From: Chitinophaga pinensis | GTDB taxonomy: Bacteria; Bacteroidota; Bacteroidia; NS11-12g; UBA955 | Direction: 5' to 3' | Assembly (NCBI GenBank): GCA_945871905.1 | Contig: CAMBXL010000005.1 | Span: forward strand, 124,001 to 188,000 | Length of the DNA: 64,000 bases | Shown here: positions 52,663 through 64,000 of the stretch, one piece after another | How the letters are laid out: the number at the start of each line of letters is the position of its first letter | Position numbering within the stretch: the stretch's first letter is position 1 | The notes under the pieces: generated by a model | Seen by the model: the letters and a program-made list of their open reading frames with translations, nothing else | Databases searched by the model: none | Told to the model about the DNA's origin: nothing | Translations under genes and position numbers: made by a program

Positions 52663-53418
52663 ATGAACACAAAGCATATTCATAATTTATTGTATATTTT
52701 TTGTTTACTAATCGTTTTTATAAGCTGTAAAACAAATTCAAATAAAATTATAACATACCAAAATTATAACATAACCAAGGTTGCACCCGATTCTATACTA
52801 TATTATTCAATAGATAGTTTTAGACAAATTTTAAATTCAAAAATGAATACGATAGTAGGTTATTTAGATTCATCATTAGATAAAGGGAAACCGGAAAGCA
52901 AACTAGGTAATTATGCAGCCAATGCATGTTTATGGCAATATTCAAATTCAATATCCTATGACACTAATTGCTTTGTAATGCTTAACAATGGCAGCCTTAG
53001 GGCCACATTGCCAATGGGAGAGGTTTTAACACGCCATTTATATGAATTAATGCCCTTTGAAAACAAATTGGTTGCCCTTTTACTTAAAGGTAAAACAGTC
53101 ATTCAACTATTTAATTATATAGCGAATAAAGGAGGTAATCCTGTTGCAAACTTAAATTTATCAATTTCAAAAAACGGAAAATGGAATGATGCTAAAATTA
53201 ATGGTAAGTTTTTTGATTCAACACAAAATTATTATTTAGTAACAAGTGATTATTTAGCTAATGGTGGTGACAATTGTTCATTTTTAAGTAATGCTATAAA
53301 TAGAATTGACCTTGATATAAAGGTAAGAGATGCATTGATTTTTTACTTAAATAAAAAAAGTTCAAAAACATTCCCTTTAAAAATTCAATTGGAAAACAGA
53401 ATTCGAGTTTATGAATAA
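52663..53418 (+). CDS. 5'-nucleotidase C-terminal-domain lipoprotein
   Basis: The protein has 251 residues with a lipoprotein signal (IVFISC, cysteine 22). The body is the UshA/5'-nucleotidase C-terminal domain that binds the nucleoside: SKLGNYAANACLWQY, MLNNGSLRATLPMGEV, ELMPFENKLVALLLKG and VTSDYLANGGDNCSFL. In classic UshA this domain is fused to the metallophosphatase half; here the two halves are neighbouring genes, this one 8 nt overlapping the next. It should be anchored on the cell envelope and shape substrate choice. Confidence 0.88.
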   Translation: MNTKHIHNLLYIFCLLIVFISCKTNSNKIITYQNYNITKVAPDSILYYSIDSFRQILNSKMNTIVGYLDSSLDKGKPESKLGNYAANACLWQYSNSISYDTNCFVMLNNGSLRATLPMGEVLTRHLYELMPFENKLVALLLKGKTVIQLFNYIANKGGNPVANLNLSISKNGKWNDAKINGKFFDSTQNYYLVTSDYLANGGDNCSFLSNAINRIDLDIKVRDALIFYLNKKSSKTFPLKIQLENRIRVYE

Positions 53419-54280
53419 ACGAAGATATTTTTTAAAACAGGGATTAATTTTAGCTGGTTTCTTTATTTTAAATCCAATAAAGATAAAAGCCGCAATTACT
53501 AAAAAAACTAAAATTACTATTTTGCATACCAACGATATACATAGTCATATTGATGCTTTTGATTCAAATGATCCAAATTTCCCAAATCAAGGCGGACTTT
53601 TAAATGTATATGCTAAAATACTAGAGATAAGAAACAAAGAAGCTAATGTATTACTTTTTGATTGTGGAGATGTATTTCAAGGCACACCTTACTTCAACTT
53701 ATTTGGTGGTGTAGTTGAATTTAACACTATGAGTAAAATGGGATACAATGCAGGTACAATTGGCAATCATGATTTTGATAACGGCTATCTTAATTATAAA
53801 AACACAATAGAAAAACACAGTAATTTTCCTATACTTAATGCAAACTACATCATATCAGAAAATCATCAATCAGCTATGATTTTACCTTATAAAATTTTTG
53901 AAATTGAAAATAAAAAAATAGGTGTATTTGGTATAGGCATTGAACTAAAGTCCTTATTAGATGCCGAAAATTTTAAGGATATCGTTATTCTTAATCCTAT
54001 TGAATGTGCCAATAAAACAGCTAAAATACTAAAAAAAGAAAACTGTAATTTCATAATCTGTTTATCCCACTTAGGGTTTCAATACATGGACCAAGAAAAT
54101 AAACCAAGTGATATCCAATTGGCAAAACATTCAAATCATATAGATATGATTTTAGGAGGCCATACCCACACTTTCTTAAATGAACCTGTAGTTGTAAAAA
54201 ATTTAAAAAACGAAGATGTAGCAATTAATCAAGCTGGATGGGCAGGCTTGAAATTAGGAAGGGTTGATATTGAGATTTAG
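53411..54280 (+). CDS. 5'-nucleotidase metallophosphatase half with Tat signal
   Basis: The protein has 289 residues. The N-terminus RRYFLKQGLILAGFFILNP fits a twin-arginine signal (RRxFLK). The metallophosphatase motifs follow in order: TILHTNDIHSHI (DxH), FDCGDVFQGTPYF (GD), GTIGNHDFDNG (GNHD), a histidine in ICLSHLGFQY, and DMILGGHTHTFL (GHTH). It hydrolyses nucleotides or other phosphate esters outside the cytoplasm with a dimetal centre, which the Tat route (folded, metal-loaded export) suits. It lacks its own substrate domain, supplied by the previous gene. Confidence 0.9.
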   Translation: MNKRRYFLKQGLILAGFFILNPIKIKAAITKKTKITILHTNDIHSHIDAFDSNDPNFPNQGGLLNVYAKILEIRNKEANVLLFDCGDVFQGTPYFNLFGGVVEFNTMSKMGYNAGTIGNHDFDNGYLNYKNTIEKHSNFPILNANYIISENHQSAMILPYKIFEIENKKIGVFGIGIELKSLLDAENFKDIVILNPIECANKTAKILKKENCNFIICLSHLGFQYMDQENKPSDIQLAKHSNHIDMILGGHTHTFLNEPVVVKNLKNEDVAINQAGWAGLKLGRVDIEI

Positions 54281-56485
54281 TTATCTTAAAAGTTTTATTA
54301 CACCATTAAAAAGATATTTCTTTTCAGAAATACCCACACAATTGACCAAATAAAAGTATGTGCCATCTTGGCAATTATTTCCTTGATATGTACCATCCCA
54401 TTTTCCATTCAAATCATTCGTTTTATATATTAACTCACCCCACCTGTTATAAATATATAAATTAATTGACGACAATTGATTGTTCTGAACAAAAAAGAAA
54501 TCATTAATACTATCATTATTGGGAGAAAATGCATTAGGAATAACTATTTGTTCTTCTCCATAAACAATAACATTTAATTCAGTAGTATCCATACATCCTG
54601 TTGTTGTATCTTCTACTATATGTTTTATGAAATAATTGCCAGCTATGCCGGGTTTGTATCTTATCTCATTTGAGAATGAACTGAAATTAAAAGCATTCCA
54701 TTGGTGTTTTAAATCAATATCTTGAATACTTTTGCATGTAAATACTTCAGTAATAGGTAAGTTATTTGAAGGGTTGATTGTGAAATCTGCCTTGGGTTTA
54801 TCTTTAACTACAATTATTTTTATTATTTTAGCAGTACACCTTCCTTTAATAACTTGGTAAGTTATAGGGAAACTGCCTATTGCTTTAGGTATAAAATAAT
54901 TGCCTGTAATATTTAAACCACTAAATGTTCCCAAATAATTATCTTTTATTAAATCAATAGAATTACTTCCTAAACAAACAATTGTGTCGGAAATAATCGG
55001 TGTTAAAGTATTAAATTTAAAAATTTTGATTAAAATACTATCTATCGCATTTGAACAATTATCTTTTGAAACAGCCCATATTTTCACTTCAGTCTCTGTT
55101 TTAGAAGGCATGTAATTCATAGATATGCCATTGGGTGAGGATAGAGTGCCTGTTCCGTTGTGTTTGAATGCAATTTTTATAGAATTAGTAAGTGTGTTTA
55201 TCGATAAAGTTTCGCCTTCGCACAACAAAGTATCATTACTTAATCTAATAAAGCTACTATCTTTAGGTTTTAAAACATAAAGAGTATCCTTTTGATTATT
55301 GCCGCAAAAATCTTTAATAGAAGCAATAATTTGAACGAGATTAGTATCTAAATGACTGAAATTGTATGCTTTAATAGTATCATTAATATCTAAAAAATTA
55401 CCAAAACCATTATTTTGCCATGTTAAACCAGAAACAAAATTTGTTTTAATATAAACTTTCTTTGTACAGAATTGAGAATCTAATTTGATTTTCAATTCAC
55501 CAGATTGGCTAACATATAATACAATGGAATCAACCAAAGCAGTACTACAACCGCCCCAAGCAAACAACTTAATAACATACTTTTTTAATTTTTTATTCGG
55601 CACAAAACTAGGCTTTCTAGAAAAAGAATCTGATAACTTTCCATGAGCAGATCGCCAAACAAAACATCGTTCATTTTTTAATTTTGCCTCTAAAAAAGCA
55701 GTGTCATTTGAACATAATGTATCTTTTCCTAAATTAATAGCTTTAGCTGATACTTTAATAAATGGAGCGTTACAACCATTATTTAAATAAGAGGGACTTC
55801 CATTATCCGCAAAAAAAACCAAGCCGCCATCTTGTGATCCAACTGAACCAGATAACGTTTTTAATAAACCTCTATCATAAGTAACAGTATCGCTACAAAT
55901 ACCTGAAATAGATAAAATATTTGTTCTATTGCCTCCGCTAGAAGAATAATTTGCAAAATGTCCACTGGTATTGCCATTGCATTGAAAAATAGCATATGCA
56001 GTATCTTCTATATTTGTAAAACTATTACTACCAACAGCAAAGTTTGTTGATGTAAAAAAGAAAACATTCGCATTGGCTGGAATTTCCCCATTTTGGGGTT
56101 GCTTTAAAAACCCACAAGATACAATGGTTCTATTAATTCTAGCAACTATAGTATCTGTTGTTGTATTTTTACAAATACCTAAAAAAGAATTATTACTCCA
56201 TTTAACTGATATATCAGTTGTTCTTATTTTATTCTTACCTACCTTAAATGTTAAAATTTCATTTTCTCCTTCTGGTGTTCCACAAGCATCTACCAATATT
56301 GACGTTAATTCTACACATTTATTGATAGTAGTTTGTGTTTGTCCATTTGATTTACATGGTTGAGCATAGCTTTGTTGTAAGAGAAGTTTACTAAGAAATA
56401 TAAATAAAAAAAGCACTTTACAACCTAATTTGCAATAGGTGTAACTAGAATAAAAATTTGGGTTAGAAAAAATAGAGGAATACAT
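54281..56485 (-). CDS. Large surface protein with T9SS type B (gliding-associated) C-terminal domain
   Basis: The protein has 734 residues with an N-terminal hydrophobic signal (VLFLFIFLSKLLLQQSYAQP). Residues 60-250 form a domain with ELTSILVDACGTPEGENEIL and ANANVFFFTSTNFAVGSNSF that resembles lamin-tail-like modules of extracellular proteins. Middle Ig/SprB-like repeats (LGKDTLCSNDTAFLEAKL, SNDTLLCEGETLSINTL) follow. The last 85 residues (VIPNAFSPNNDSINDFFFVQ, then NLYIYNRWGELIYKTNDLNG, WDGTYQGN) are the CHU_C type B T9SS domain. It is expected at the cell surface. It faces the nucleotidase genes tail to tail with 0 bp between stops. Confidence 0.88.
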   Translation of the reverse strand: MYSSIFSNPNFYSSYTYCKLGCKVLFLFIFLSKLLLQQSYAQPCKSNGQTQTTINKCVELTSILVDACGTPEGENEILTFKVGKNKIRTTDISVKWSNNSFLGICKNTTTDTIVARINRTIVSCGFLKQPQNGEIPANANVFFFTSTNFAVGSNSFTNIEDTAYAIFQCNGNTSGHFANYSSSGGNRTNILSISGICSDTVTYDRGLLKTLSGSVGSQDGGLVFFADNGSPSYLNNGCNAPFIKVSAKAINLGKDTLCSNDTAFLEAKLKNERCFVWRSAHGKLSDSFSRKPSFVPNKKLKKYVIKLFAWGGCSTALVDSIVLYVSQSGELKIKLDSQFCTKKVYIKTNFVSGLTWQNNGFGNFLDINDTIKAYNFSHLDTNLVQIIASIKDFCGNNQKDTLYVLKPKDSSFIRLSNDTLLCEGETLSINTLTNSIKIAFKHNGTGTLSSPNGISMNYMPSKTETEVKIWAVSKDNCSNAIDSILIKIFKFNTLTPIISDTIVCLGSNSIDLIKDNYLGTFSGLNITGNYFIPKAIGSFPITYQVIKGRCTAKIIKIIVVKDKPKADFTINPSNNLPITEVFTCKSIQDIDLKHQWNAFNFSSFSNEIRYKPGIAGNYFIKHIVEDTTTGCMDTTELNVIVYGEEQIVIPNAFSPNNDSINDFFFVQNNQLSSINLYIYNRWGELIYKTNDLNGKWDGTYQGNNCQDGTYFYLVNCVGISEKKYLFNGVIKLLR

Positions 56486-56860
56486 TATTTGTTTTAAATA
56501 ATTTAATTTGCAATTTTACATTTTACATGTTTCTATAGTTAATGGGAAAAGTTTAAATTATTCCTATTAAATTATTAAATTTAATACTCAAATATATTAT
56601 TTCTTTGATTAACTTATCTGTTTACATTTATATTTATTAATGTAATTAAATTGATAGAAATAGACACTTAAACTGTTCATTAATTGATTTTTAACTATTT
56701 TATTATGTTTTAAGTAAAATAATTTATATTTTCTTTTTTTAAATTATAACCTTAACATCAAATTTATATACTATTAATTTAATAATGACTTAATTGTAAT
56801 ACTTATGAAGTCATTAAGTCATGTTCTTCAATTAATTTTGTAGCTAAAATTCAAAAAAAA
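56486..56860. promoter_or_regulatory. 375-bp AT-rich divergent region with inverted repeat
   Basis: This very AT-rich region holds no plausible frame. It carries TAATGACTT (56784-56792) and its inverted copy AAGTCATTA (56809-56817), a 9-bp pair around 16 nt, just before the -7 box at 56833-56840. A TTTTAAG run at 56708 resembles the motif near 37446 but is not identical. Confidence 0.45.
56833..56840 (+). promoter_or_regulatory. -7 box (TAATTTTG) of the phytase-like esterase gene
   Basis: An exact TAnnTTTG, 20 nt before ATG 56861; an inverted repeat lies immediately upstream. Confidence 0.5.
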
Positions 56861-59584
56861 ATGTTTAAAATCTTTTCAAAAACAATTTTTACTTTAAGTA
56901 TTTATCTTATTAGTAATTCTTCATTTTCACAAAGCCCTGGGCTTATTATTTCAGAGTTTTTCGCCAATCCATTAGGAACTGATTCGTGCAAAGAATATGT
57001 TGAGTTAATTGCAACTAGAAATATCAACTTTGCTTCAACACCTTACACAGTAATTTTATCAAACAATGGAGCTGCTACTTCTAAAGGCTGGGTAAATGGA
57101 GCTGCCCTAACGTATGCTTTTAGCATTACAACTGGTTCAGTAAGTAAAGGAGATGTTGTATACGTAGGAGGAAGTTGTATGGCAGCAACAGGTGTTAAAT
57201 TAAGAACAATTAACACCAAATTTGTTAATGGTGATGGTGGCATTGGTGCATATAATGTGAATGGTGTAATGGGCAATGGAGGTTCTAATGCAGATGGAAT
57301 AGCTGTTTTCAATCAGTTAGTTTCAACAATAGATAGTAGTACTATACCTGTGGATGCTATTTTTTATGGAACTGGTATTGGTACTGCAGTTTTTTCTGGT
57401 GGAACAAAAGGCATGACTTTGCCTAATAATGACAAGTATTCTGGAGGGGTCTTATCAAGTTCAAGTTATTTTGCTCCCGATGCTGTTAGTGATTCACTCA
57501 TTACTGCATCTGGAGAATATAATACAACTTCAAATACATGGACGACTGCAAGAACTTGGATTTCAAAAAAAGCAGTTTCATATGGTTCTAGTTTAGTAAA
57601 ATTAACTGGCGCATCGGCTCCTTTAGCTTCAAAATACACTTGGAAAACACCTAACTCCCTTGGAAAATTTCAAGGAGTTGATATTTCAAATGGTGGTTTT
57701 TCTGGCTTACATTACGATAGAAAAAATCAAATATTTTATATCGTTACAGATAGAGGACCTAATTTAGATGCTGAAAATAACAGACATGCCATAAAAATTG
57801 GAGGTATTGGAAATGGTGCAAAACTATTTGCTGTACCTACATTTAATCCTCAAATTATAGGATTCAAAGCTGATGGGGATTCATTAAGAAGATTAAATAC
57901 TATAACACTTAAAAAACCAAATGGAACTGCTACAAGTGGATTAACAAACCCAAAAAATGCAGGAGGAACCAATGAAATAGCACTAATTGACACTGCAGGG
58001 AATTTAGCTGCTAATGATATCTGGGGAATAGATTCAGAGGGTTTAATAGAAGGTAATGATAGCGATTATTGGTTTTGTGAAGAATATGGTGTAAGCGTAT
58101 GGCACACTGACAAAAACGGAAAAGTAATTAACAGATATGCTCCATTTACTGCCGGTGGAAACGGTCAAACACAAGATATTGCAATTGATTCTATTTTCAA
58201 ATATCGAAATCCAAACAAAGGATTTGAGGGCATTGCATTCACTCCCAACAATAAAGTATATGCTTTTATTCAAAATCCAGTTTTATTTCCTGCAAATGAT
58301 GTCAATCTAAAAAAGAATTCACAATTGCACCGTTTTATTGAAATAGACCCTAAAACAAACACGACTAAAATGTTTGGTTATGAACATGATAAAGTGCCAA
58401 GTTCAGGTGCTTTAAGTTCAATTAAAAATGATAAACGATATATCGGCGATGCTGTAGCAGTAAATGATAAACAAATATTGGTATTAGAGCATGGCAAAAG
58501 TGCAACAGAAAGTTATGGTAAAGTTTATCTGGTAGATATTAGTTCTGCAAGTGAATTAAGTAAAACATCGATGGCATATGCAGGTGGAACCAAATCTTTT
58601 GAACAATTATTAGATTCAACAACAGCTGCGGCAAATGGAGTAACTTGCATCAAAAAAACGTTACTAATCGATTTAATAGCTTCAGGATACGACCCAACTA
58701 TTGAGAAAAAAGAAGGACTCACTATTATCAATGATAGTACAATTGCTATTGCCAACGACAATGATTTTGGCATTGTATCTAATGCAACTAACGGAGTTGC
58801 TTCATTATCTGGTGTTAAAAGCTTTATTTCTATGTTTAAAATACCTAATAATATTAAACTAAAATTATGTGATAATGTACAAATATTTGCAAAAAATCAA
58901 ACCATTTGTGCCAATGATTCAGTTATACTTACATCCACTGCTGCTAGTAATTTAACAAACAAATGGTACAAAGACAATTTATTATTGAGTGGTAAAACAA
59001 ATACTTCTTTATCAGCAAAAGCAAGTGGTGTTTATGAACTAAGAAGTACCAACGCAAATGGATGTGTTGCGGTTTCAAATACCAAAACTATTATTGTAAA
59101 TGCATTGCCAACATCACCAATAATTTCTCAAGTAAAAGATAGCTTAATTGCAAGTGTTAATGCGACTTCATACGAATGGTTTTTAAATGGTTCAAAAATC
59201 AATAATTCAACAACTAGAAAAATTAAAATATCCCAAAGTGGAATTTACAGTGTTATTATTACTGATTTAAATGGATGTAAAGCCCAATCTGCTAATTTCA
59301 ATGCTACACAAACGGATGTAAATACAATAAAAAATAATAAAACAATCAGTATTTATCCTAATCCATTTAATCAACATATTAATGTAAAATTAGAAAATTT
59401 AAATTCAATTATCACACATATTAGAATTTTAAATGTAATAGGTGTTGAAATAATTTCAAGCAATAAAATTGTAATGAAAAACAATGAAGCTATGATCCCT
59501 ACAGCTCAATTAAAGAAAGGACTTTATTTAATTGAAGTAAAAACCAACAACGGTACATTTACTCAAAAAATAATTAATAATTAA
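56861..59584 (+). CDS. Lamin-tail/phytase-like esterase with T9SS sorting domain
   Basis: The protein has 907 residues. A signal peptide (FKIFSKTIFTLSIYLISNSS) is followed by a lamin-tail domain (GLIISEFFANPLGTDSCKEY, VELIATRNIN) to about residue 230. The middle part has the esterase-like phytase domain pattern (FQGVDISNGGFSGLHYDRKN, YIVTDRGPNLDAENNRH, GFEGIAFTPNNKVYAFIQNP) to about 670, then an Ig-like module with paired cysteines (NQTICANDSVILTSTAASN) and a C-terminal type A T9SS domain (ISIYPNPFNQHINVKLENL). It probably cleaves organic phosphate esters outside the cell, consistent with its neighbours, although phytase activity is not proven by sequence. A long terminator hairpin follows. 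Confidence 0.85.
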   Translation: MFKIFSKTIFTLSIYLISNSSFSQSPGLIISEFFANPLGTDSCKEYVELIATRNINFASTPYTVILSNNGAATSKGWVNGAALTYAFSITTGSVSKGDVVYVGGSCMAATGVKLRTINTKFVNGDGGIGAYNVNGVMGNGGSNADGIAVFNQLVSTIDSSTIPVDAIFYGTGIGTAVFSGGTKGMTLPNNDKYSGGVLSSSSYFAPDAVSDSLITASGEYNTTSNTWTTARTWISKKAVSYGSSLVKLTGASAPLASKYTWKTPNSLGKFQGVDISNGGFSGLHYDRKNQIFYIVTDRGPNLDAENNRHAIKIGGIGNGAKLFAVPTFNPQIIGFKADGDSLRRLNTITLKKPNGTATSGLTNPKNAGGTNEIALIDTAGNLAANDIWGIDSEGLIEGNDSDYWFCEEYGVSVWHTDKNGKVINRYAPFTAGGNGQTQDIAIDSIFKYRNPNKGFEGIAFTPNNKVYAFIQNPVLFPANDVNLKKNSQLHRFIEIDPKTNTTKMFGYEHDKVPSSGALSSIKNDKRYIGDAVAVNDKQILVLEHGKSATESYGKVYLVDISSASELSKTSMAYAGGTKSFEQLLDSTTAAANGVTCIKKTLLIDLIASGYDPTIEKKEGLTIINDSTIAIANDNDFGIVSNATNGVASLSGVKSFISMFKIPNNIKLKLCDNVQIFAKNQTICANDSVILTSTAASNLTNKWYKDNLLLSGKTNTSLSAKASGVYELRSTNANGCVAVSNTKTIIVNALPTSPIISQVKDSLIASVNATSYEWFLNGSKINNSTTRKIKISQSGIYSVIITDLNGCKAQSANFNATQTDVNTIKNNKTISIYPNPFNQHINVKLENLNSIITHIRILNVIGVEIISSNKIVMKNNEAMIPTAQLKKGLYLIEVKTNNGTFTQKIINN

Positions 59585-59596
59585 TTTAACTTTTTT

Positions 59597-59643
59597 CCCA
59601 TAAAAAAAGTCTTGGTTATAATAACCAAGGCTTTTTTTATGGG
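59597..59643 (+). terminator. Strong bidirectional terminator hairpin
   Basis: CCCATAAAAAAAG(t)CTTGGTTAT pairs with ATAACCAAG(g)CTTTTTTTATGGG, a 23-bp stem with one G-T pair and a tight loop. The U-rich right half makes it a good terminator for the esterase gene. Confidence 0.85.
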
Positions 59644-59839
59644 AAATTTTAATACCCTTTTTTTCTTTAGATTAAATCTTTAAAATTAAATTATTAGAGG
59701 TTAAAAAAATTCCTTTTTTTGTTTTTAGAAATAATTTATTGATAATTATAATTATCGAACACTTTTTAAGACATTGATGATTGCGTTATTTAAAACAATA
59801 GCTCTTGGATAAAATAAAAATATTAGAATTAATTCTATT

Positions 59840-60877
59840 TTACTCTATCTCTTTTAGTAAAATTATATAAGTAGGAAAGTGATCGCTATATCCACCATTA
59901 TAATTATCAAAATCAAACGTGCGAAATGGATATCCTTTAAAGCGTCCGGTAGTATTAATCATGTATGGTTTACTATAAATAGTTGCTTGTTTAAAGACAT
60001 ATCCTTTGTCAGATTTAACAAACCCATAAGATAAAATCAATTGGTCGAACAAACTCCATACATCTTGATAAGCCAATGTGCCTAAGCCTTTTTTATAGTA
60101 ATTTAACCATGGATTTAACATTTGCTGCTGTGTTTTTAATTTATCAGGATTTGAAACTGCATTGACAATTTTTGAACAACTTGGATTGGTTGGATTATCG
60201 TTCAAATCGCCCATTATAATACATTTGGCATTGGCATTTATATTAACTAAAGAATCTATATAATGTTTACATATTCTAGAACCTTCGTTTCTAAAAGGTG
60301 CTGTTAATTCTTCACCTCCCCCTCTTGAAGGCCAATGGTTAACAAACAATTGAACAGTATCTCCGTCCAACAAGCCGGTTACCCACAAAATATCTCTTGT
60401 GGGTCTGTCGCCACCTAAATGAAAAGTACTCAAAGTTATAGGTTTTGATGCTAATAGTTTAAAGTATTTTGGATTGTAAAGCAAGGCAACATCTACCCCT
60501 CTTTCATCTGGACTATCATAATGAACGACTTTGTAATTTCTGTTTTTTAATTTTTCAGTTTTACACAAGTCTTCTAAAACATTTCGATTTTCAATTTCAG
60601 CAACACCCAAAATAGCTGCACCATCAGGTGTAACCTCAGTTGCAATTTCTGAAATAACAGTAGATAGTTTTTGAAGTTTATCTAAGTAAACAGAAGACGA
60701 ATATTTTTTTTTACCATTTGGTGTAAATTCATCATCATTTTTAAATGGGTCTTCAATGGTGTCATAAAGGTTTTCTAAATTATAAAATGCAATGGTTGCA
60801 ATCTTATATTTTTTCGATTGAGCGTTTGAAAACTGAATACTAAAAAGAAAAATTAATGATAAAAATAGATATTTCAT
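59840..60877 (-). CDS. Exported endonuclease/exonuclease/phosphatase family protein
   Basis: The protein has 345 residues with a signal peptide (MKYLFLSLIFLFSIQFSNAQ). The EEP fold is clear: TIAFYNLENLYDTIEDPF, LGVAEIENRNVL with the metal-binding glutamate, VNHWPSRGGGEE, IIMGDLNDNPTNPS (catalytic Asp, Asn), and YSDHFPTYIIL (final His). Such secreted enzymes cut extracellular DNA or RNA or release phosphate from phospholipids and phosphodiesters. It is divergent, by 169 bp, from the TonB-dependent receptor gene and lies in the scavenging locus. Confidence 0.93.
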   Translation of the reverse strand: MKYLFLSLIFLFSIQFSNAQSKKYKIATIAFYNLENLYDTIEDPFKNDDEFTPNGKKKYSSSVYLDKLQKLSTVISEIATEVTPDGAAILGVAEIENRNVLEDLCKTEKLKNRNYKVVHYDSPDERGVDVALLYNPKYFKLLASKPITLSTFHLGGDRPTRDILWVTGLLDGDTVQLFVNHWPSRGGGEELTAPFRNEGSRICKHYIDSLVNINANAKCIIMGDLNDNPTNPSCSKIVNAVSNPDKLKTQQQMLNPWLNYYKKGLGTLAYQDVWSLFDQLILSYGFVKSDKGYVFKQATIYSKPYMINTTGRFKGYPFRTFDFDNYNGGYSDHFPTYIILLKEIE

Positions 60878-61026
60878 TATATGGTTAATAGCTTTCGAAA
60901 TTATTTATATTTTTAGAGTTATTATGAATTTATTCTTAAATTTAATAAAAAAATAATATTATCATTTTATAGTATTATTTAACAATTGAATAACTTTCTA
61001 GGCAAATTCAATTTATTGAAATTTAA

Positions 61027-61034
61027 TAATTTTG
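61027..61034 (+). promoter_or_regulatory. -7 box (TAATTTTG) of the TonB-receptor operon
   Basis: An exact TAnnTTTG, 12 nt before ATG 61047. Confidence 0.45.
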
Positions 61035-61046
61035 TGAATTATAATT

Positions 61047-63635
61047 ATGTACAAGACAATTAAAAAAATTGTTTCACTTTTGATACTTTTATTTATTAGT
61101 AATCAAACTTTTTCTCAAATAATCAAAGATTCATTATCCAAAGAACCTATAATAAATGATGATGAAGGTAAAGAACAAGATCAAATACCAACCATCTCAA
61201 TTGATGAAAATGATAATTTCACAACTGCTACTCCTCAAAGTATCTCATCGGTTCTAAATGGCTCAAGAGATGCATTTTTATCTGCGGCTTCTTTCAATTT
61301 TAGTGTAGCACGTTTTCGAATTAGAGGATACGAACAAAAAAACTTTTCAACCTATATGAATGGTGTACCAATGGAAAATTTAGAAAATGGATTTTCTACA
61401 TGGGGCTTGTGGAGTGGTTTAAATGATATGACTCGGAGTAAAGAGGGTACTCTAGGAATTAAAAACACAAACTTTGGTTTTGGAGAATTAGGAGGTGCAA
61501 CAAATATAGATTCTAGAGCATCTAAACAAAGAAAACAATTGAGCTTAAGTTATGCAACATCAAACAGAACATATAACAACCGCATAATATTAAGCTATGG
61601 AAGTGGTTTTAATAAAAAAGGTTGGGCTTATGCCTTATCAATTGGAAGTAGATGGGCAGAAAAAGCATATATACCAGGGACGGATTACCAATCATTCTCT
61701 TATTTTGGCGCTATTGAAAAAAAAATCAAAGGTTCACATTCTTTGGCTTTAACAGCATTTGGTGCACCCACTAGAAATGGGAGATCAACACCATCTGTCC
61801 AAGAAACATTTGATATTACAGGCAGCAAATATTACAACCCTAATTGGGGCTATCAAGCTGGAAAAATACGAAACGCTAGTGAAGGGTATACCAATCAACC
61901 GGTTGTAATATTAACACATGATTTTAACGTAAATAAAACCTCTAATTTAATCACTGCTGTAAGTTTTTCTTCTGGGTATAGAAATATAACAGGACTTAAT
62001 TGGTATAATGCACCAGACCCACGTCCAATCTATTACCGATATTTACCCTCCTATTTCTATGCAGAAAAAGACACCATTCAAGGAAAAAACATAGAAAACT
62101 TGTACAGAAATAACCCAGAATTACTTCAAGTTCAATGGGATAATATGATAGATGCTAACAGAAGTCAAAATAATACTACCATTCAAAATGCTAATGGTAT
62201 TTCAGGCAATACCGTTACAGGCAAACGTGCAGTTTATATTGTAGAAAACAGAATCCAAAAAAACACTAATTTTAATTTTAACTCAACTTATAATAAAACC
62301 TTTAATGACATTACAAATGTTAGTACTGGCTTAACTATCCAAAAGCAAAAGTCTAGTTTTTACAAAGAATTAGTAGATTTATTGGGGGGCGATTATTTTT
62401 TAGATATTAACCAATTTGCTGAAAGAGATTTTAGAGATAGTACTTCGTCTGTTCAAAATGATTTGAATAACCCCAACCGAATTATTAAAGAAGGAGATAG
62501 ATTTGGCTACAATTATGACATATACTTCAATAAAAATTCATTTTGGGGACAGCTGTCTCACAAATTTGCAAGATTTGATATTTTTTTAGCAGGAGAAATA
62601 TCAAATACCAAATTTTGGAGAGATGGTAAATACAAAGTAGGTTTGTTTGCTAACAATTCTCTAGGGAAATCAGAAATTAATAACTTTTTAAATTATGCAT
62701 TAAAAGGAGGGGTAACTTATAAATTGAATGGTAGAAATTACTTTTTCATCAATGGATTTAATGCAACTAAAGCACCTAATTATTTCGATGTATTCATGTC
62801 CTTAAGAACTCGAAACGACCAAATTATAAATCCTCCAAGTGAAAAAATAAGTTCAATTGAAGGTGGTTATATTTATAACTCACCTTTATTAAAACTAAGG
62901 AATAACTATTACTACACGACTTTCAGAAATGGTATTCACAACAACTTATATTTTGATGATGTTTATGCCGCATTTGGAAATTTATCTGTTAGTAATATCA
63001 ACAAAATACATTATGGAACAGAGCTATCTTTGGAAGGAAAACTATATAAAGGATTAAGTTTTACATCTGTTGCTGCAATAGGTAGAAATTATTTCTCTAC
63101 CAGACAAACTTCAACATTTACTGTAGATAACACAGCAAAAATATTTCCTAGTGAATTGGTTTATGTAAAAAATTATAGAGTGGGTGGAACTCCAGAACAA
63201 GCTTATAATGTTGGTTTTAATTACAGAAGTAAAAAGTTTTGGTGGATGAACTTAAATATTAATAATTTTAGAAATGCATGGGAAAATATAAGTCCAGCAA
63301 GAAGAACTTCTGCAGCCATAGATTTGGTGCAAGAAGGAAGTGCACAATGGAATGAAATTATAGATCAGAAAAAGCTATACTCTTCTCAGTATACTGTCGA
63401 TTTTTCTGCAGGTTATAGCATTAAATTAAATAAAGTATTTATGAAACTTAAAAACAATCATTTTTTAGTTATAAATGCAAATGTTAGCAATTTATTAGAC
63501 AATCAAAATTTAAAAACAACAGGTTACGAACAACTTAGATTTGATATTACAAACCACGATCCTAATAAGTTTCCATCACGTTACAACTATGCTTTTGGTC
63601 GCAATTATTTCTTAAGTATTACATACAGATTTTAA
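61047..63635 (+). CDS. TonB-dependent receptor
   Basis: The protein has 862 residues. A signal peptide (MYKTIKKIVSLLILLFISNQ) and a short acidic linker precede the plug domain (SISSVLNGSRDAFLSAASFN, RIRGYEQKNFSTYMNGVP, ENGFSTWGLWSGLNDM), which is followed by a barrel ending in AFGRNYFLSITYRF, with the C-terminal Phe of an outer-membrane protein. The N-terminal carboxypeptidase-like domain common in Bacteroidota is absent. It should import a TonB-driven ligand; the DUF5689 lipoprotein gene 22 bp downstream and the exported EEP enzyme beside it suggest nucleic-acid or phosphate-ester breakdown products. Confidence 0.92.
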   Translation: MYKTIKKIVSLLILLFISNQTFSQIIKDSLSKEPIINDDEGKEQDQIPTISIDENDNFTTATPQSISSVLNGSRDAFLSAASFNFSVARFRIRGYEQKNFSTYMNGVPMENLENGFSTWGLWSGLNDMTRSKEGTLGIKNTNFGFGELGGATNIDSRASKQRKQLSLSYATSNRTYNNRIILSYGSGFNKKGWAYALSIGSRWAEKAYIPGTDYQSFSYFGAIEKKIKGSHSLALTAFGAPTRNGRSTPSVQETFDITGSKYYNPNWGYQAGKIRNASEGYTNQPVVILTHDFNVNKTSNLITAVSFSSGYRNITGLNWYNAPDPRPIYYRYLPSYFYAEKDTIQGKNIENLYRNNPELLQVQWDNMIDANRSQNNTTIQNANGISGNTVTGKRAVYIVENRIQKNTNFNFNSTYNKTFNDITNVSTGLTIQKQKSSFYKELVDLLGGDYFLDINQFAERDFRDSTSSVQNDLNNPNRIIKEGDRFGYNYDIYFNKNSFWGQLSHKFARFDIFLAGEISNTKFWRDGKYKVGLFANNSLGKSEINNFLNYALKGGVTYKLNGRNYFFINGFNATKAPNYFDVFMSLRTRNDQIINPPSEKISSIEGGYIYNSPLLKLRNNYYYTTFRNGIHNNLYFDDVYAAFGNLSVSNINKIHYGTELSLEGKLYKGLSFTSVAAIGRNYFSTRQTSTFTVDNTAKIFPSELVYVKNYRVGGTPEQAYNVGFNYRSKKFWWMNLNINNFRNAWENISPARRTSAAIDLVQEGSAQWNEIIDQKKLYSSQYTVDFSAGYSIKLNKVFMKLKNNHFLVINANVSNLLDNQNLKTTGYEQLRFDITNHDPNKFPSRYNYAFGRNYFLSITYRF

Positions 63636-63657
63636 ACAAAAAATAAAATTAATAAAA

Positions 63658-64000
63658 ATGATAAAAATTTCAAAAAAACTAGGACTGATACTTTTAAGTA
63701 TTTTACTACTTGTTAATGCTTGTAAAAAAAAGGAATTTGACAAACCCGAACCTTTGGCTGATCCAAATTTAAAAGTAACAGCTACTATTGCAGAATTAAA
63801 AGCACTTTTCACGGCAGGTGCACCAGTTTTAATTACTCAAAATATGGTAATTGCAGCTACTGTAGTGGCAGATGATAAAAGCGGAAATATTTACAAACAA
63901 ATTATTGTGGACGATGGCACTGCAGGAATCTCTATTGCCATTGACAGAAGTAATTTGTATGCCGATTTCCCTGTGGGTCGAAAAGTATATATCAAATGTA
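63658..64000 (+). CDS. DUF5689 lipoprotein, 3' partial
   Basis: The frame runs from ATG 63658 to the window edge (114 residues seen). The lipobox LLVNACKKK places the lipidated cysteine at residue 22, so it is an envelope lipoprotein. The following sequence (VTATIAELKALFTAGAPVLI, then IAATVVADDKSGNIYKQIIV, DDGTAGISIAIDRSNLYADF, PVGRKVYIK) is the OB-fold-like DUF5689 domain, common after TonB-dependent receptors and near exported nucleases in Bacteroidota. It starts 22 nt after the receptor gene and is surely cotranscribed. Confidence 0.85.
   Translation, partial: MIKISKKLGLILLSILLLVNACKKKEFDKPEPLADPNLKVTATIAELKALFTAGAPVLITQNMVIAATVVADDKSGNIYKQIIVDDGTAGISIAIDRSNLYADFPVGRKVYIKC

Follow-up and report, generated by a model that had tools for sequence, protein, structure and literature searches.

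What is the function of the enzymes and surface proteins encoded around a TonB-dependent receptor at one end of a 64 000-nucleotide stretch of Bacteroidota DNA? This stretch, called the window below, corresponds to bases 124001–188000 of contig 5 in a genome of 2.5 Mb and 31 contigs (G000). A preliminary description proposed these genes as a candidate locus, analogous to a polysaccharide utilization locus (PUL), devoted to organic phosphate or DNA and continuing past the window edge. The answer bears on how Bacteroidota move DNA across the outer membrane.

Gene content of the window

The features of the region are the following.

52663–53418, plus strand: lipoprotein with the C-terminal domain of a 5'-nucleotidase (5_nucleotid_C, PF02872, 8.9e-16); family-specific neighbour
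53411–54280, plus strand: metallophosphatase domain of a 5'-nucleotidase (Metallophos, PF00149, 1.9e-13, UshA-like); family-specific neighbour
54281–56485, minus strand: CHU_C surface protein, 734 aa (PF13585, 6.8e-20; type B T9SS tail); bystander
56861–59584, plus strand: T9SS protein, 907 aa (Phytase-like, PF13449, 9.2e-41; type A T9SS tail); bystander
59840–60877, minus strand: exported EEP enzyme, 345 aa (Exo_endo_phos_3, PF19580, 1.8e-113); core
60878–61046, no strand: divergent intergenic region of 169 bp between the EEP and receptor genes
61047–63635, plus strand: TonB-dependent receptor, 862 aa, predicted barrel fold; core
63658 to window-equivalent position 65004, plus strand: DUF5689 lipoprotein, 448 aa (PF18942, 4.8e-63); core

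All the open reading frames named in the preliminary description are present, at or near the positions it gave. Its exported EEP enzyme, TonB-dependent receptor and DUF5689 lipoprotein are confirmed by PF19580, the predicted barrel and PF18942, respectively, and the two-part 5'-nucleotidase is real, its domains residing on two genes that overlap by 8 bp. The product of the second of these genes starts with a twin-arginine-like signal (MNKRRYFLKQG).

The lamin-tail domains attributed to both surface proteins were dropped, as the N termini of the two proteins have no Pfam match even at E 10; of the proposed lamin-tail/phytase-like esterase, only the phytase-like part holds. One stretch, 'LIISEFFANPLGTDSCKEYVELI', resembles a lamin-tail domain by eye despite the negative Pfam result. 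The claim that each gene can act on phosphate esters is likewise unconfirmed: no domain of this kind is seen in the CHU_C protein, whose only Pfam domain is CHU_C.

The DUF5689 gene starts 22 bp after the receptor gene and ends about 1 kb past the window edge; the lipobox '...LLLVNAC' is seen in the sequence of its product. A TAnnTTTG (−7-like) box is located 20 bp before the receptor gene, a match to the consensus alone, which is no evidence of function. The expected continuation past the edge is thus real for the DUF5689 gene. The 8.5 kb from the edge to the end of the contig contain the remainder of this gene and two convergent genes for surface proteins, and no phosphodiesterase, phosphatase, alkaline phosphatase or SusD. 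The surface proteins (L004:2662-9397) have 879 and 1368 aa and weak T9SS tails, with fibronectin-like repeats in one of them; open reading frames of similar size adjoin the core genes in genome G016.

Conservation of a three-gene core

In about 44 of the 296 Bacteroidota genomes sampled, a receptor profile matches relatives over their full length; it also detects a weaker, separate group of paralogues. With a query from family f5, which includes Amniculibacterium and is taken here as Weeksellaceae, the receptor is found in 154 of the 158 genomes of this family. The window belongs to another order of the same class as f5 and f6, the latter taken as Flavobacteriaceae. Gene neighbourhoods were compared around 54 sampled orthologues (about 20 kb each) and 80 named ones (up to 15 kb each); the two sets overlap in part, and the named set consists of the best 80 loci, R. 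anatipestifer not being among them.

The DUF5689 gene lies directly downstream of the receptor gene in all 80 named loci and in 52 of the 54 sampled loci. The EEP gene is upstream of the receptor gene and divergent from it, completing the order seen in the window, in 71 of the 80 named and 41 of the 54 sampled loci; two more carry it on the same strand. None of four paralogous receptors has an EEP or DUF5689 neighbour. The paralogous receptors of L076, L077, L078 and L079 form a separate clade, also present in distant Bacteroidota families. In the receptor tree, orthologues and paralogues are separated at 100/100, and the EEP tree agrees with it for the clade of the window. Among 30 relatives of the window genome, the closest EEP orthologues occur exactly in the three genomes that have a receptor orthologue, the others having more distant EEP relatives only.

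The linkage is far beyond chance for three genes only: EEP, receptor and DUF5689. The genes of the preliminary description are not borne out as a single unit. The EEP gene is not indispensable to the receptor/lipoprotein pair, since a Flavobacterium clade (L144, L150, L153 and L158, including F. hydatis and F. limi) has kept the pair and lacks the upstream EEP gene. The receptor has been reported as confined to Flavobacteriaceae (PMC8459023). The pair occurs beyond this family, and in most carriers its divergent neighbour encodes an exported EEP enzyme.

Orthology with transformation genes

Riemerella anatipestifer is a bacterium of ducks. A transposon screen and clean deletions in its strain ATCC 11845 revealed that RA0C_RS04915, a receptor-type outer-membrane protein, and RA0C_RS04920, a DUF5689/DUF5017 protein, are indispensable for natural transformation: clean deletion of either brings transformation below detection, whereas most other envelope hits merely reduce it (PMC8459023). 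The screen gave no role to the divergent neighbour of the pair (PMC8459023).

Comparison with this locus was made through G374, a single contig of 2,164,087 bases that is tied to R. anatipestifer by gene order. It carries recA, dinB, sdhB, sdhA, sdhC, comEC, a small gene, a carboxylase gene, EEP, receptor and DUF5689, an order that matches RA0C_RS04870–04920. When tags are counted by five along G374 from recA (04870), comEC falls on 04895, the receptor on 04915 and DUF5689 on 04920, as in PMC8459023; by the same counting, the EEP gene would correspond to RA0C_RS04910. The comF and dprA genes of G374 are at the places expected for RS05105 and RS05130. In an R. anatipestifer-like genome, a gene that by eye looks like the CRISPR gene cas1 follows the DUF5689 gene by less than 2 kb (L081:17819-18718).

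Each of the three core proteins of the window aligns in full length with its counterpart in G374: the receptor with 30 per cent identity (856 columns, E 1.7e-116), the lipoprotein with 30 per cent identity (E 8e-53) and the EEP enzyme with E 4e-88. The two receptors fall into one 100/100 clade, with the paralogues outside. On these alignments, this tree and the gene order of G374, the window receptor and lipoprotein are orthologues of RA0C_RS04915 and RA0C_RS04920.

The tonBA and tonBB mutants of R. anatipestifer are also impaired in transformation, although the tonBB effect may act through iron (PMC8383284). Transformation in this species needs phosphate, the removal of which lowers it, and is not induced by lack of phosphate (PMC8383284); in R. 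columbina, it rises about two-fold on phosphate removal (PMC7965970). Attempts to transform Flavobacterium johnsoniae in the laboratory did not succeed under the conditions used (PMC7965970), though the receptor and lipoprotein are present in other species of the genus.

The window genome encodes ComEC, DprA, ComF-like, HHH and DUF1343 proteins, the ComF match being below the NCBI cut-off here as in G374. These genes were rejected as a discriminating signal: comEC, dprA, comF, HHH and DUF1343 genes are general, and those of them that were checked are also found in members of the genus that lack the receptor, so their presence is no proof of competence.

Properties of the core proteins

The receptor has a sub-threshold match to the Pfam Plug domain (E 0.017). 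Its AlphaFold2 model (mean pLDDT 65.7, the plug region being low or poorly modelled) is a TonB-dependent barrel, for which the best Foldseek match is Fiu (E 4e-23); the folds closest to it are those of receptors for siderophores and cofactors. An N-terminal carboxypeptidase-regulatory-like domain, present in 14 of 17 compared receptors, is absent from that of the window.

The EEP enzyme matches PF19580 with 379 bits (cut-off 27). Its motifs N, E, NHW, GDxND and SDH are invariant in the 12 sequences aligned, and the catalytic motifs are intact. Its activity could be that of a nuclease or of a phosphatase.

For the window lipoprotein, DUF5689 matches are the only ones in Pfam, and none is of the SusD type. 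The orthologue from Chryseobacterium gambrini was modelled in its place, because the window copy is cut by the edge. Fold searches with this model covered the C-terminal jelly roll (residues 297–463), which resembles the cleaved-adhesin domains of gingipains (VIA-align Z 14.0, rmsd 2.7, 146 residues) and, more generally, carbohydrate- or protein-binding jelly rolls. Such a predicted shape does not by itself indicate DNA. The strand pattern and the analogy with ExeM raised the possibility of an OB fold for the DUF5689 domain; when the PDB was searched with a profile of this domain alone, nothing useful was returned. In alignment A3 (L097-L176), the C-terminal modules of DUF5689 lipoproteins vary: many have a DUF5017-like jelly roll, three of 35 a lamin-tail domain, and the longer ones apparently a second DUF5689.

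Neighbours of the core

The split 5'-nucleotidase is found near the core in all three core-bearing genomes of the window's family (G000, G016 and G018), at most 7 kb away and in constant relative orientation, with different intervening genes. No such neighbour was found outside the family among the loci compared, the test being weaker for the named loci, which were read only 6 kb upstream. Seven of the 30 relatives (G017, G019, G021, G023, G024, G025 and G029) have the metallophosphatase half but not the receptor. The pair may have been retained through long-standing proximity or through a genuine link, and we treat it as a local extension.

Between the 5'-nucleotidase pair and the core, the window has the CHU_C and phytase-like genes and G018 a gene for a T9SS-secreted endonuclease I. 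Endonuclease I genes are located near the core in three further loci; the total of four in 134 may, on a rough estimate, be mere chance. Those directly beside the core include L010:11709-13142, which has a T9SS tail, and L159:7744-8796, whose start is some 10 bp downstream of the DUF5689 gene.

The CHU_C protein is not found near the core outside the family, with the exception of one weak relative in L069. In the sister species G016, the orthologue of the phytase-like gene (L009:12873-13922) has kept the N terminus and the T9SS tail and lacks the phytase-like domain. The CHU_C and phytase-like genes are bystanders, not conserved partners of the core.

A model of DNA uptake and its alternatives

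We consider that EEP, receptor and DUF5689 lipoprotein probably constitute a TonB-energized DNA-uptake module, here outside Flavobacteriales. The lipoprotein, held by its anchor in the outer membrane and probably exposed to the outside, would capture extracellular double-stranded DNA, which the receptor would carry across that membrane with energy from TonB. The EEP gene would be expressed in the opposite direction from a promoter region common to both, and its exported product would act on the DNA by introducing nicks, generating ends or trimming it. The ComEC, ComF, DprA and RecA-type proteins encoded in the genome could then bring one strand inside for recombination. In the window's family, the split 5'-nucleotidase could remove the phosphate from nucleotides that are released, and the locus would then feed the cell as well.

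The proposal starts from the observed gene content, orthology and conserved linkage. Mutant phenotypes in R. anatipestifer and cellular location suggest DNA passage for the receptor and DNA binding for the lipoprotein, and linkage and intact catalytic motifs suggest the role of the EEP enzyme. That DNA uptake operates in the organism of the window we infer by analogy; with only 30 per cent identity to the genes tested in R. anatipestifer, the substrate could have changed.

A nutritional use of DNA would involve the same proteins. The EEP enzyme, with endonuclease I in relatives, would cut DNA outside the cell or in the periplasm, the receptor and lipoprotein would import oligonucleotides, and the 5'-nucleotidase would free phosphate and nucleosides, transformation being a by-product or absent. 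We judge this combination rather unlikely, although the constant proximity of the 5'-nucleotidase pair in the family, the endonuclease I of G018 and of three other loci, and two secreted Flavobacterium endonuclease I proteins that belong to the phosphate-starvation response (PMC8115612) all point towards it. Against it, the 5'-nucleotidase is missing from the loci outside the family and persists without the receptor in relatives, the endonuclease I count may be due to chance, and R. anatipestifer requires the pair for transformation, which phosphate removal lowers (PMC8459023, PMC8383284). Since the 5'-nucleotidase stands beside the core in the family and endonuclease I does so in G018, nutritional use of DNA is possible locally. 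A literature search found no publication combining extracellular DNA, TonB and phosphate starvation in Bacteroidetes.

The nucleic-acid half of the PUL-like claim is thus partly upheld by the orthology of the receptor and lipoprotein with transformation genes. The half concerning phosphate esters or phytate is not supported, the phytase-like, CHU_C and 5'-nucleotidase genes being absent from the loci of almost all relatives. A general organic-phosphate or phytate utilization locus, for which the phytase-like domain and the metallophosphatase near a TonB receptor would argue, is very improbable. The core is conserved without these three kinds of genes, the phytase-like domain is absent even from the copy in the sister species, and the documented Flavobacterium phosphate-utilization loci differ in make-up (PMC8115612). 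As core function it was rejected: neither the phytase-like nor the CHU_C gene is a conserved partner, and the next 8.5 kb contain nothing related to phosphate, nor any SusD, phosphodiesterase or alkaline phosphatase. We also hold it improbable, to a lesser degree, that the receptor and lipoprotein import another ligand, such as a peptide or cofactor, and that the R. anatipestifer mutants fail to transform for an indirect reason, for instance a change in signalling or in the state of the envelope. The siderophore- and cofactor-receptor folds, the carbohydrate- or protein-binding type of jelly roll and the influence of phosphate, peptone and iron, each of which affects transformation (PMC8383284), would fit such a ligand; the complete loss of transformation in both clean deletions, compared with the mere reduction in most other envelope hits (PMC8459023), and the near-constant divergent neighbour of a nuclease family speak against it.

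DNA uptake by the core thus remains our preferred reading. A more general form of it, put forward tentatively and with more doubt than confidence, is that EEP, receptor and DUF5689 make up a dedicated, pilus-free, TonB-energized importer of double-stranded DNA across several Bacteroidota families and orders, with the EEP enzyme as entry nuclease, some families having added a 5'-nucleotidase and a secreted endonuclease for combined gene exchange and nucleotide feeding. The EEP gene is a ready third candidate beside the receptor/lipoprotein pair of PMC8459023. Should DNA indeed enter by way of a TonB-dependent receptor, Gram-negative bacteria would have a second route of DNA uptake, with consequences for the spread of genes within Bacteroidota.

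Comparison with known systems

The PusCD phosphate-utilization loci of Flavobacterium resemble the window as PUL-like clusters of a TonB-dependent transporter, a lipoprotein and hydrolases (PMC8115612). PusD belongs to the SusD family, whereas the window lipoprotein is of the DUF5689 type; no SusD-family lipoprotein stands beside the receptor, and the DUF5689 gene is followed by the convergent surface proteins. The enzymes of the PusCD loci are phosphatases, phosphodiesterases and a phytase (PMC8115612). Of the hydrolases near the window receptor, the EEP enzyme, which could be a phosphatase as well as a nuclease, is conserved, and the 5'-nucleotidase is near the core in three family members only. 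PusCD loci are induced by phosphate depletion, and the main text describing them makes no mention of PF19580 or DUF5689 (PMC8115612). F. johnsoniae also has a TonB receptor, Fjoh_3841, that is phosphate-inducible, stands as an orphan and carries pf13620 (PMC8115612).

Like the EEP enzyme of the window, the ExeM/Xds nucleases of Shewanella and Vibrio are exported members of the EEP superfamily (PMC6085458, PMC6746945). In the ExeM type, a single chain unites LTD, an OB-type region and EEP. The window enzyme is a stand-alone protein of PF19580 alone, and its candidate binding protein is a separate lipoprotein, in which an OB fold is a conjecture. Type IV pilus uptake in Vibrio and Neisseria brings double-stranded DNA over the outer membrane to ComEC-type transporters, as is proposed for the window; it relies on a pilus and a secretin, and the window would use a TonB-dependent receptor and a lipoprotein instead.

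The closest counterpart is RA0C_RS04915/RA0C_RS04920 of R. anatipestifer ATCC 11845, with the same succession of receptor and DUF5689 genes and, by tag counting, the same divergent EEP gene (RS04910) upstream. The window differs from it by an identity of 30 per cent, a receptor without the N-terminal carboxypeptidase-regulatory-like domain, comEC on another contig, the split 5'-nucleotidase nearby and a host outside Flavobacteriales. Judged by its sequences, the locus is orthologous to one already known for transformation and extends its range to a new lineage; the EEP partner is near-constant, and the 5'-nucleotidase is specific to the family.
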